Positions 524 to 3,638 of a stretch of DNA of 59,127 nucleotides are shown in pieces. The stretch's first letter is position 1. Each line of letters opens with the position of its first letter. The notes under the pieces were generated by a model. That model searched no databases, had not been told where the DNA came from, and saw nothing but the letters and a program-made list of their open reading frames with translations. The stretch is taken from contig MKTV01000005.1 in NCBI GenBank assembly GCA_001898425.1, positions 22,547 to 81,673 on the forward strand. The letters are read 5' to 3'. This DNA is from Rhodospirillales bacterium 69-11. Lineage in GTDB: Bacteria; Pseudomonadota; Alphaproteobacteria; Acetobacterales; Acetobacteraceae. The translations under genes and the position numbers were made by a program.

Positions 524-1225
524 TCAGTGGCGGGTCTCGCAGGCGAGGTCGAGCAGGGTGGAGCGGTCCAGCAGCCGCAGTCCGGTGCGGGAGACCTGGA
601 TCATGCCTTCGCGCTTCAACGCGGCCAGCACGCGGCAGACGGTCTCGACGGTGAGGCCCAGGTGGTCCGCGATGTCGGTGCGGCTCATCGGCAGGTCCAG
701 CAGGCCGCGGCCGGTGGCCGGCATCCTGCGGTCGAACTCCAGTACGAAGGAGGCGAGGCGTTCGGTCGCGGTCTTTCGGCCCAGCAGCAGCGTGCGCTCC
801 TGCGTCGCCCGCAGGTGCTCGAGCGCGAGCTGGCGGAGGCGGCGGGCCAGCACTGGGCGGCTCTCCGCCAGGGCTTCGACCATGCGGCGCGGATAGCGGC
901 GCAGCACCGTCTCGGTCACGGTCTCGACGGCGAAGGAGTGCGTGTCGAGTTCGTCCAGGCCGAACACGTCCCCGGCCAGCAGGAATTCGCCGACCTGCCG
1001 GCGTCCGTCCTCCATCAGCCGGACCGTGCGGACGCAGCCGCTGACCACGCGATAGCAGAACTCCGCGGCATCGCCCTCGGCATGGATCTCGTGGTCGCGT
1101 CCGATCCGCAGCGTGGTGCCGAACTGTTCCAGGAGGTCGAGCGGCTCCGGGGTCGGCGTGGCGGGCGCGGCGGTCGAGAGGGCGCGGGTGGCTTTGGCCT
1201 GGGGCGCCTGGATGGAAACGTGCAT
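524..1225 (-). CDS. fixK: Crp/Fnr-family transcriptional regulator, FixK-like
   Basis: A 233-residue regulator with an N-terminal cyclic-nucleotide-binding-type beta roll (about 31-120), a long dimer helix (about 125-150) and a C-terminal Crp-type helix-turn-helix (about 178-215, RTDIADHLGLTVETVCRVL). It lacks the N-terminal cysteine cluster of true Fnr, so it should not sense O2 itself; FixK proteins of alphaproteobacteria are of this kind. Cys197 lies inside the recognition helix (ETVCR); I recall that Bradyrhizobium FixK2 has a redox-sensitive cysteine at a comparable place. The ATG at 1225 is preferred over the overlapping GTG at 1228 because AGGAGA sits just upstream. It is divergent from fixJ, and the 115-bp gap holds TACGTA palindromes that fit FixJ control. 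Likely targets in the window are the TTGAY-N4-RTCAA boxes before the FixT-like gene and napE. Confidence 0.88.
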   Translation of the reverse strand: MHVSIQAPQAKATRALSTAAPATPTPEPLDLLEQFGTTLRIGRDHEIHAEGDAAEFCYRVVSGCVRTVRLMEDGRRQVGEFLLAGDVFGLDELDTHSFAVETVTETVLRRYPRRMVEALAESRPVLARRLRQLALEHLRATQERTLLLGRKTATERLASFVLEFDRRMPATGRGLLDLPMSRTDIADHLGLTVETVCRVLAALKREGMIQVSRTGLRLLDRSTLLDLACETRH

Positions 1226-1297
1226 CACTCTCTCCTGACGGCTGGTCCGAAATCGTGGCTCGACCTCTACCCGGCTGGCGGTGGGCCCGAAATTCGG

Positions 1298-1340: not shown

Positions 1341-1967
1341 ATGGACGGGTCCGCAGTGGTCCATGTCGTGGACGACGACGATGCGGTGCGTGACTCGCTC
1401 GCGTTCCTGCTGGAATCGTCGGACTTCACGGTCCGCACCTACGCCTCGGCGGCGGATTTCCTGGCGGTCGCCGGCACGTTCCGGACCGGCTGCGTGCTGA
1501 CGGACGTGCGGATGCCCGGCATGGACGGGCTCACCCTGCAGAAGCAGCTCGTGGCGCGCGGCTGCCGCCTGCCGGTGATCGTGATGACGGGGCACGGCGA
1601 CGTCCCGATCGCGGTCCAGGCGCTGAAGAACGGCGCGAGCGACTTCCTGGAGAAGCCGTTCGACGACGCGGCCCTGCTGGCCGCTGTGCGCGGCGCGATG
1701 GCCGAAAGCCTGCGGGCCGAAGAGGCCGCCGCCGGGGCGGCCGAACTGACGGAGCGGCTCGCGGCCCTGACTCCGCGCGAGCGGGAGGTGCTGGAGCGCC
1801 TGGTGGCGGGCCAGGCCAACAAGACCATCGCCTTCGACCTCGGCACCAGCCCGCGCACGGTGGAGGTGCAGCGGGCGCGGGTGATGGAGAAGATGGGCGC
1901 GCGCAGCCTCGCCGAACTGGTGCGCATGTCGCTCGTGCTGGAGGGCGTGGCGCGCCCCCCACGCTGA
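1341..1967 (+). CDS. fixJ: Two-component response regulator FixJ
   Basis: A 208-residue response regulator: receiver domain (about 6-120) with acidic pocket DDDD at 11-14, phospho-acceptor Asp55 in LTDVRMPGMDG, a Thr in VMTGHGD and Lys in FLEKPFDD, then a LuxR/FixJ-type helix-turn-helix (about 142-200, LTPREREVLERLVAGQANKTIA). FixL phosphorylates FixJ under low oxygen and FixJ-P activates fixK. The ATG at 1341 is chosen because GGAGG lies at 1331-1335; an in-frame GTG at 1323 lies inside the palindromic operator. It is the first gene of a fixJ-(fixT-like)-fixL set. Confidence 0.92.
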   Translation: MDGSAVVHVVDDDDAVRDSLAFLLESSDFTVRTYASAADFLAVAGTFRTGCVLTDVRMPGMDGLTLQKQLVARGCRLPVIVMTGHGDVPIAVQALKNGASDFLEKPFDDAALLAAVRGAMAESLRAEEAAAGAAELTERLAALTPREREVLERLVAGQANKTIAFDLGTSPRTVEVQRARVMEKMGARSLAELVRMSLVLEGVARPPR

Positions 1968-1994: not shown

Positions 1995-2076
1995 GGATGG
2001 CGGGCGCACGGTCCCCCATCATCGCTCCGGTTGGCCTTTCCCCGCGGGAAGGGGAATGGGTTGCTGGAGATCATCT

Positions 2077-2445
2077 ATGCACGGAAGTGCAGGAACCGTG
2101 GTGGCGGTCGTCGACGACGACGAAGGCGTGCGGGAGTCGCTACGCTTCCTGCTCGAGACCGCAGGGTTTCGTGTCGAGACGTTCGCGTCGGGCGACCAGT
2201 TCCTCGCCACCTGCCGCCGTGACCGCGCCTGCCTGGTGGTGGACCAGAACATGCCGCAGCTGACCGGCATCGAGCTGCTGCAGCGGCTGCGGGCGCGGGG
2301 CTGCAACTTGCAAGTCGCGCTGATGACCGGCTCGCCCTCCCACGACCTCACCCGCCGTGCGCGGGAGCTGGGGGCTGCCATGGTGCTGGAGAAGCCGCTG
2401 CAGGACGACGCGCTGCTCCAGTTCGTCTGCCGAGCGGCGCATTGA
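2077..2445 (+). CDS. Receiver-only response regulator, FixT-like FixL inhibitor candidate
   Basis: A 122-residue stand-alone receiver domain with no output domain. The acidic pocket (DDDE, 13-16), the phospho-acceptor Asp56 (LVVDQNMPQ), Thr84 (LMTGS) and Lys106 (LEKPL) are all present. It carries four cysteines (46, 52, 76 and 118), while the neighbouring FixJ receiver has only two. In Caulobacter, FixT is a single-domain receiver, activated by FixK, that inhibits FixL, and I recall it being reported to bind an Fe-S cluster through cysteines. Size, gene position between fixJ and fixL and the FixK-type box at 1981 all fit that role. Start: ATG at 2077 with GGAGA at 2066-2070; an upstream in-frame ATG at 2056 lacks this. 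The alternative is an ordinary phosphate-sink receiver. Confidence 0.7.
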
Positions 2446-2489: not shown

Positions 2490-3638
2490 ATGGCGCGGGT
2501 TCTGGAAGGTGAGGCGGGAGACAGCAGTGGCGAATCCGCCCTGCTGAGATCCATCCTGGACACCGTTCCGGATGCGATGGTGCTCATCGACCAGGCCGGC
2601 GTGATCCTGTCGTTCAGCGCCGCCGCCGAACGCCTGTTCGGCTACACGGCCGCCGAGGTGCGCGGCCAGAACGTCAGCATGCTGATGCCATCGCCCTATC
2701 GGGAGCAGCACGACGCCTATCTCGCGCGCTATCTCGCCACCGGGGAGCGGCGGATCATCGGGACCGGCCGCGTCGTCATCGGGCTGCGGCGGAACGGCAG
2801 CACGTTCCCGATGGAACTCTCGGTCGGCGAGGTGCGGCAGAACGGCACGCGCCTGTTCACCGGGTTCGTCCGCGACCTCACGGAACGGCAGCAGACCCAG
2901 GCGCGGCTGCAGGAGCTGCAGGAGGATTTGCTGCACGTCTCCCGCCTCCGCGCCATGGGGCAGATGGCGGCGGCGCTGTCGCACGAGCTGAACCAGCCGC
3001 TGACCGCGACCACGAACTACCTGCGCGCGGCGGAGCGCATCCTGGACGGGGACGCGCCGGACCTCGGGCGCATCCGCCAGGCGATCGGGCTCGCGGCACA
3101 ACAGACGCTGCGCAGCGGGGAGATCATCCGCCGCCTGCGGGCCTTCGTCGCCCGGGGCGAGGTGGCACGCCATCCGGAAGCGATGGCCAAGCTGATCGAG
3201 GAGGCGAGCGCGCTTGCCCTGGTCGGTGCGAAGGAGCGGGGCGTCGCGGTCAGCCTGCACGCCGAACCGGGCCTGCCCACCGTGCTGGTGGACCGGGTGC
3301 AGATCCAGCAGGTGCTGCTGAACCTGATCCGCAATGCGGTCGAGGCGATGGAAGGCAGTGCCGAACGGCGGCTGGTGGTCGAGGCGAGCCGGTTCGAGAG
3401 CATGGTCGTGGTGATGGTCTCCGACACCGGCACAGGCATTCCCCCGGCGATCGAGGCGCAACTGTTCCAGCCCTTCGTGACCACCAAGCGCGAGGGGATG
3501 GGGATCGGCCTGTCGGTCTGCCGCACCATCGTGGAGGCGCATGGCGGGCGGCTGTGGGCCGAACCCAACCCGGCGGGCGGGACCATCTTCCGCTTCACCC
3601 TGCCGGTGCCGGCAGTGGTGGCGCCGCCCGAGGACTGA
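2490..3638 (+). CDS. fixL: Oxygen-sensing heme-PAS histidine kinase FixL
   Basis: About 382 residues, soluble, no membrane segment. A single PAS domain (about 20-135) has the FixL heme signature: proximal His74 in [12 protein letters not shown] and Arg94 in IIGTGRVV, exactly 20 residues apart as in Bradyrhizobium FixL (His200, Arg220). A short coiled coil leads to the HisKA domain with phospho-acceptor His165 ([12 protein letters not shown]) and a HATPase domain with the N box ([12 protein letters not shown]), DTGTG and GMGIGLS motifs. O2 leaving the heme should turn on autophosphorylation and transfer to FixJ. Rhizobial relatives often have membrane helices or a second PAS; this one has neither. 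The start is uncertain: ATG 2490 has no clear ribosome site, and a TTG at 2442 overlapping the previous stop would add 16 residues. Confidence 0.93.

Follow-up and report, generated by a model that had tools for sequence, protein, structure and literature searches.

What is the role of a lone receiver domain that is encoded between fixJ and fixL and keeps a complete phosphorylation site? Such a gene lies in the window analyzed here, a stretch of 59,127 nucleotides from Rhodospirillales bacterium 69-11 (Acetobacteraceae; contig MKTV01000005.1). To our knowledge, FixT is one of the few receiver-built kinase inhibitors. FixT has been characterized in two distant species, and the acidic pocket is degenerate in both. 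A preliminary description of the locus proposed a FixT-like receiver behind a FixK box in a FixLJ operon and, with it, a compact circuit in which a possible iron-sulfur or redox input, arising from the four cysteines of the receiver, joins the oxygen (heme) input. The receiver part of this proposal is supported and the iron-sulfur or redox part is not. We consider it fairly probable that the protein acts as the negative-feedback lone receiver of a FixLJ-FixK oxygen circuit, resembling FixT and retaining an intact phosphorylation site.

The features of the locus are collected in Table 1. A divergent fixK is followed by fixJ, the FixK box, the lone receiver and fixL, so that the receiver gene is indeed physically inserted between fixJ and fixL. 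The fixL start was set at the ATG, 44 nt after the receiver stop, with an alternative TTG at 2442 possible. NCBIfam gave FixK as the best family for the fixK product (179.9 bits, under the cut-off of 300). The PAS domain of FixL aligned with Bradyrhizobium FixL (1dp6) over 126 residues, including a His and an Arg that we take to be heme-site residues. Downstream of a second FixK-type box, Pfam identified genes for NapD, a molybdopterin oxidoreductase and NapB; given this box, the periplasmic nitrate reductase probably belongs to the same FixK regulon.

Table 1. Positions of the fix features and the second box in the window
Feature	Position	Strand	Remarks
fixK-like CRP/FNR regulator	524..1228	-	divergent from fixJ; Pfam cNMP_binding and HTH_Crp_2
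fixJ, receiver and LuxR-type HTH	1341..1967	+	NCBIfam NF006900 FixJ, 279.9 bits (cut-off 255)
FixK/FNR-type box TTGACCTAGGTCAA	1981..1994	+	82 bp 5' of receiver ATG
-10-like hexamer CATCAT	2017..2022	+	22 bp 3' of box; class II geometry
Shine-Dalgarno-like GGAGA	2066..2070	+	6 nt 5' of receiver ATG; from sequence
FixT-like lone receiver (122 aa) with complete acceptor site; Cys at 46, 52, 76 and 118	2077..2445	+	
fixL: heme-type PAS, HisKA, HATPase	2490..3638	+	Pfam
Second FixK-type box TTGATTTGGATCAA	5739..5752	+	5' of napD-napA-type-napB region; NapD ORF from 5975

The receiver matched Pfam PF00072 (E 1.3e-22) and no other family at E 0.001. Its AlphaFold2 model (pLDDT 90.7) has a receiver fold, and a fold search again returned the receiver fold. 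D13, D14, D56, T84 and K106 are all present and the DDD pocket is complete, which bears out the description of a single receiver domain with an intact phosphorylation site. With FixT the protein shares the absence of an output domain (Pfam and model), linkage to fixL, fixJ and fixK, and a FixK-type box predicted from the promoter sequence. The degeneration of the acidic residues before helix 1 that is described for both characterized FixT proteins was not found, and the CxxCxxCx4C motif of Caulobacter is absent. Against the NCBIfam FixT model (NF051882) the protein scored 36.6 bits, below the cut-off of 150. Because it misses this cut-off and lacks the degenerate pocket, we have not filed it as a FixT equivalog. 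S. meliloti FixT also fails the cut-off (27.9 bits), and a Caulobacter-genus FixT passes it (188.1 bits). The cut-off is therefore too narrow, and it was dropped as a test of FixT membership.

In order to place the locus, FixL was searched for in 385 genomes of the class (36 with a match) and 200 genomes of the family (50 with a match), and every listed FixL place except the window's own was taken into a survey of 90 loci. A receiver was called linked when no more than 600 bp separated it from fixL or fixJ, a limit of our own choosing. By this measure a lone receiver accompanies 60 of the 90 FixL loci, in many gene orders, although parsing was poor or the match weak in a few of the linked cases (L161, L162, L212); the other 30 have none within 600 bp, some of them being cut by contig ends. 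The commonest order with a receiver is fixL>fixJ>receiver>fixK>, the order of S. meliloti (19/90), and fixL>fixJ> alone is found at another 19.

A quick phylogenetic tree was constructed from few alignment columns with SH-aLRT as its sole support, after three of 131 rows had been dropped (L162_T, L216_J, L026_T); the placement of long-branch rows is accordingly unsure. FixT grouped with the lone receivers and not with FixJ, at weak support (84) and on long branches, and more than a dozen surveyed receivers fell outside the FixT/lone-receiver group. A separate deep branch (SH-aLRT 96) holds the fixLJ-linked receivers L198, L201, L202, L205 and L212, some of which have unusual acceptor regions such as ILDPHRQ. 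The window protein belongs to a clade of 49 rows, which represent 46 different proteins since three pairs are one protein fetched twice; for 11 of the 49, the short locus includes no fixLJ gene. L014-L022, L024 and L029 group tightly within this larger clade; the short loci of these lone receivers contain no fixLJ gene, and their helix 1 differs (VGDVLGGLLE, for example).

Nested in the clade is a subclade of ten genomes (SH-aLRT 91), namely the window's own, G030, G023, G032, G017, G021, G031, G046, G474 and G548 (rows L005-L012, L175, L176 and L179, with L012 and L175 from one genome). All ten have a divergent fixK followed by fixJ and the receiver. The fixL gene lies directly 3' of the receiver in six, 4 kb downstream in G046 and on another contig in G032 and G031; it was not found in the G017 assembly, which is 84% complete. 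Five related loci (L177, L180 and L182-L184) share the order of fixK, fixJ and receiver, but their fixL is convergent. None of the five has a perfect box; three have one mismatch and two have two or more.

The perfect TTGAC-N4-GTCAA box noted in the preliminary description was confirmed upstream of the receiver (Table 1). This pattern occurs once in the whole window and in none of 100 shuffles of it, and the looser TTGAY-N4-RTCAA has two matches where 0.03 would be expected. A perfect match to the looser pattern stands between fixJ and the receiver in all ten subclade genomes. Across the survey, a box with at most one mismatch was present within 200 bp upstream of 24 of the 60 linked receivers, compared with 3.6% of random stretches, and was missing from the remaining 36. 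Applied to the other genes, the same criterion detected a box at 1 of 81 fixJ, 6 of 92 fixL and 1 of 59 fixK genes, with upstream stretches measured from the start of the matched domain, such that for fixL and fixK proteins with long N-termini the stretch may be intragenic. From these comparisons the FixK box at 1981-1994 looks real.

Promoter geometry points the same way. Among 31 box-bearing receiver promoters, drawn from the survey loci and nine genus loci, 12 carry a hexamer with A2/T6 exactly 22 bp after the box; the maximum at any spacing in 5,000 shuffles, which ignore the kinship of the promoters, was seven. In FNR/FixK promoters of class II, the box is centered at -41.5. The 22-bp spacing would put the box at this position, and the transcription start would then fall near 2029. 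A promoter and terminator scan detected no sigma-70 site, and a single terminator-like site (2147-2166, inside the receiver gene) is at chance level, with 0.7 expected. The gap between receiver and fixL holds no promoter-like or terminator-like site by a simple scan, from which we infer that the two genes are co-transcribed.

Loci of this kind are already known, as judged from the accessible portions of the literature: FixT itself, the place of bll2758 in Bradyrhizobium (PMC9104804) and RPA4249 of Rhodopseudomonas palustris, called homologous to FixT (PMC13327599). FixT of C. crescentus is likewise a lone receiver near fix genes in the accessible text of Stein et al. 2020 (PMC7078487). With same-genus loci standing in for the C. 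crescentus protein, the likeness extends to a perfect FixK-type box upstream in 4/4 loci (L234-L237) and to a Cys at position -4 relative to the acceptor Asp. The window receiver differs in the missing cysteine motif, in its intact acidic pocket and in its position between fixJ and fixL. In S. meliloti, we took the unannotated gene at L117:12332-12676 on pSymA to be fixT by its place between fixJ and fixK. Its product has the same Cys before the Asp, and the gene lies directly 3' of fixJ behind a box-like sequence, TTGATCTCGCGCAA, with two mismatches to the pattern. Its acidic pocket, in contrast, is degenerate (VAADQ), the gene order is fixL-fixJ-fixT-fixK, and sequence similarity to the window protein is low.

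For Bradyrhizobium and Rhodopseudomonas, the comparison was made with a protein of B. erythrophlei (L130), and bll2758 and RPA4249 were taken from their descriptions. The former is listed as a response regulator in the accessible part of one article (PMC6515984), and its place is seen from a plasmid with fixJ, bll2758 and fixK2'-'lacZ in that of another (PMC9104804). The B. erythrophlei receiver also has an intact acceptor site and lies between fixJ and a fixK-type gene, but in the order fixL-fixJ-receiver-fixK. Osp of Rhodobacter sphaeroides, as described in the available sections of PMC9430884, similarly belongs to the lone receivers and exerts feedback by inhibiting its own sensor kinase. 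Its target, by contrast, is CckA; the acidic pair is missing, and Osp does not become phosphorylated. In our literature searches, neither bll2758 nor an Acetobacteraceae FixT appeared as the subject of a functional study; this negative is weak, as one search was swamped by an unrelated plant gene name. The searches likewise gave no account of such an operon in Acetobacteraceae and no assay of the window receiver or a close relative.

The mechanism that we favor would proceed as follows. At low oxygen, FixL would phosphorylate FixJ, and FixJ~P would switch on fixK. FixK, binding the box at 1981-1994, would then drive transcription of the receiver and fixL together. The receiver would dock on FixL through a helix 1 resembling that of FixJ and lower FixJ~P. 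It might do so like FixT, as a block on FixL autophosphorylation, or by taking up phosphate itself, or in both ways. A shared FixK-driven transcript would keep inhibitor and kinase at a constant ratio, and the amount of both would rise with FixK. The sequence itself shows the gene order, the box, the promoter geometry, the intact site and the FixJ-like helix 1; induction by FixK, co-transcription, docking on FixL, inhibition and phosphorylation are inferred. Inhibition of autophosphorylation is the mode stated for FixT acting on FixL and for Osp acting on CckA in the accessible text of two articles (PMC7078487, PMC9430884). According to the latter, in the part available, the acidic residues that precede helix 1 are missing from the characterized FixT proteins and from Osp, none of which is phosphorylated. 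The window receiver is probably phosphorylatable, and its intact site may therefore signify another mode of action.

The proposed docking surface was examined by comparing the receiver with the FixJ of the same locus. Helix 1 is the usual kinase-docking helix of receivers. In eight pairs, identity reached 0.70 in the beta1 loop and 0.69 in helix 1, the highest values, and was lowest in helices 4 and 5 (0.21 and 0.23); for 11 unlinked paralogues, helix 1 identity was 0.43. Helix 1 is as similar to other FixJ proteins (0.68) as to the receiver's own (0.69), and in 19 wider pairs it reached 0.45, below the beta1 loop (0.50). These values suggest that the likeness reflects shared ancestry or constraint and not pairwise co-evolution.

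A pure phosphate sink, in which the receiver competes with FixJ for phosphate from FixL~P and then releases it by hydrolysis, leaving autophosphorylation uninhibited, is possible but in our judgment somewhat doubtful. It overlaps with the favored explanation, where the mode stays open. The FixJ-like helix 1 would suit it, as would the position of the gene adjoining fixL on the same strand in 6/10 subclade genomes and the invariance of D13, D14, D56 and K106 in all 49 clade rows. This invariance argues that phosphorylation matters in the clade. However, the acceptor Asp is absent in 9 of 95 receiver rows of the wider tree, all outside the clade of the window protein. Parsimony on this poorly resolved tree counts at least five losses, and most of the genes concerned still lie beside fixLJ. 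Phosphorylation thus looks dispensable for the role of the family, and the repeated loss argues that its basic job can be done without it. Invariance in the clade and loss elsewhere would both fit FixL docking as the core activity.

We regard as unlikely a phospho-dependent adaptor for some other target. In this reading, FixL would phosphorylate the receiver, whose target would then lie elsewhere than in the FixL-FixJ loop, a protease or an enzyme being examples. The intact and invariant acceptor site would suit such a function, and helices 4 and 5 have diverged from FixJ as expected of a protein that no longer dimerizes and binds something else. Against it, the surveyed loci, which were scanned only for fixK, fixJ, fixL and lone receivers, gave no evidence for another partner.

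The distribution of the lone receiver invites a tentative evolutionary proposal, which we hold with a little less than even confidence: FixLJ may be a three-part system by origin, with a FixK-induced, phosphorylatable lone receiver as the ancestral third component. The phospho-dead FixT proteins of Sinorhizobium and Caulobacter would then be derived by loss of the pocket, with gain of the Fe-S motif in Caulobacter. Linked receivers at 60/90 FixL loci, the multiple Asp losses with the genes mostly kept and the weakly supported grouping of FixT with lone receivers are consistent with it. If it is true, the window gene represents the intact state in a living organism, and a single FixK-driven promoter supplies both the brake and the kinase. 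Whether such inhibitors arose from phosphate competitors could be tested directly in a clade that combines an invariant, intact site with a FixK-boxed receiver-fixL pair.

The four cysteines are exactly where they had been reported (46, 52, 76 and 118), and the statement that Caulobacter FixT binds an Fe-S cluster and inhibits FixL agrees with the accessible text of PMC7078487. The adjacent FixJ receiver was said to mostly lack these cysteines; in fact its only two cysteines, C51 and C75, are the counterparts of C52 and C76, which leaves C46 and C118 as specific to the window receiver. Four is not an extreme number, as at least four cysteines occur in 7/60 fixLJ-linked lone receivers (one of the seven, L162, being badly aligned). 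Among the 49 clade rows, Cys is found at position 46 in one, at 52 in 47, at 76 in three and at 118 in one. The closest relative, 82% identical, keeps C52 and C76 and has R at 46 and H at 118. Cys at position 52 is also the usual residue of FixJ (32/34 rows) and hence no evidence for a metal site; in the wider tree, the Cys four residues before the acceptor Asp is absent from 4/95 receiver rows.

Compared with the Caulobacter motif (C53-x2-C56-x2-C59-x4-C64, the last Cys being four residues before the acceptor Asp), C52 is the counterpart of C64 and the sole match, C46 is one residue off C59, and C76 and C118 have no counterpart. Of the single Cys mutants of C. crescentus FixT, only C64S was impaired in repression, and C64 is called broadly conserved, in the accessible text of Stein et al. 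(PMC7078487), which also states that the full motif is absent outside Caulobacter. Five Caulobacter-genus loci exceeded the NF051882 cut-off, four with the motif (L234-L237) and one without (L238). The four cysteines of the motif are likewise missing from the near miss L239; even within this genus, therefore, not every FixT carries the Fe-S motif.

An Fe-S or redox sensor, in which C46, C52, C76 and C118 would hold a cluster or form disulfides and signal the oxygen or redox status to FixL, draws on the presence of four cysteines within 122 residues, on the cluster bound through four cysteines by C. crescentus FixT (PMC7078487, in the part available) and on the match of C52 to C64, but we judge it very improbable, as C46 and C118 occur in no other clade row, C76 is rare, two of the four are missing from the closest relative and the spacing is unlike a motif that itself is said to be confined to Caulobacter and is missing from L238 and L239. 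The four-cysteine cluster was rejected on this lack of conservation, which is one of the grounds for refutation named in the preliminary description.

If the circuit has a thiol input, FixK is a better candidate for it than the receiver. The window FixK has a Cys in its recognition helix (ETVCR) that is kept in 10/10 subclade genomes. At the same position, 59 surveyed FixK proteins have Cys in 17 and Ser in 37, with no motif match in five. The protein aligned to FixK2 (4i2o) at E 3.7e-42, with the ETVCR Cys facing a Ser; we took this chain to be the C183S form whose structure is mentioned in the available text of PMC9104804. According to the same text, C183 of Bradyrhizobium FixK2 is sensitive to oxidation and its C183D mimic is a poor DNA binder. 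The redox input of the circuit would thus more likely lie in FixK, whose conserved Cys aligns with C183 of FixK2, than in the receiver.

Genome-wide, the box pattern was found at 14 places, compared with one for a reversed control pattern. Six of these are copies of TTGACCGCSGTCAA on contig C28, which were rejected as FixK boxes and lie beside ParA-type and RepB-type genes (Pfam), leaving eight. The six copies are near-identical palindromes in L226 (C28, 3186-4360), of which five read GTTGACCGCGGTCAAC, and fit parS-like partition sites of a plasmid-type replicon. The 14-mer of the receiver promoter recurs unchanged at L229:1500-1513, 89 bp before an OmpW-family gene. Finally, the divergent region between fixK and fixJ contains a conserved stretch at about 1289-1322 (GAAATTCGG ... 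CCGTACG ... TACGTA), which recurs in varied form in most of ten aligned relatives and is possibly a FixJ site or a shared promoter.
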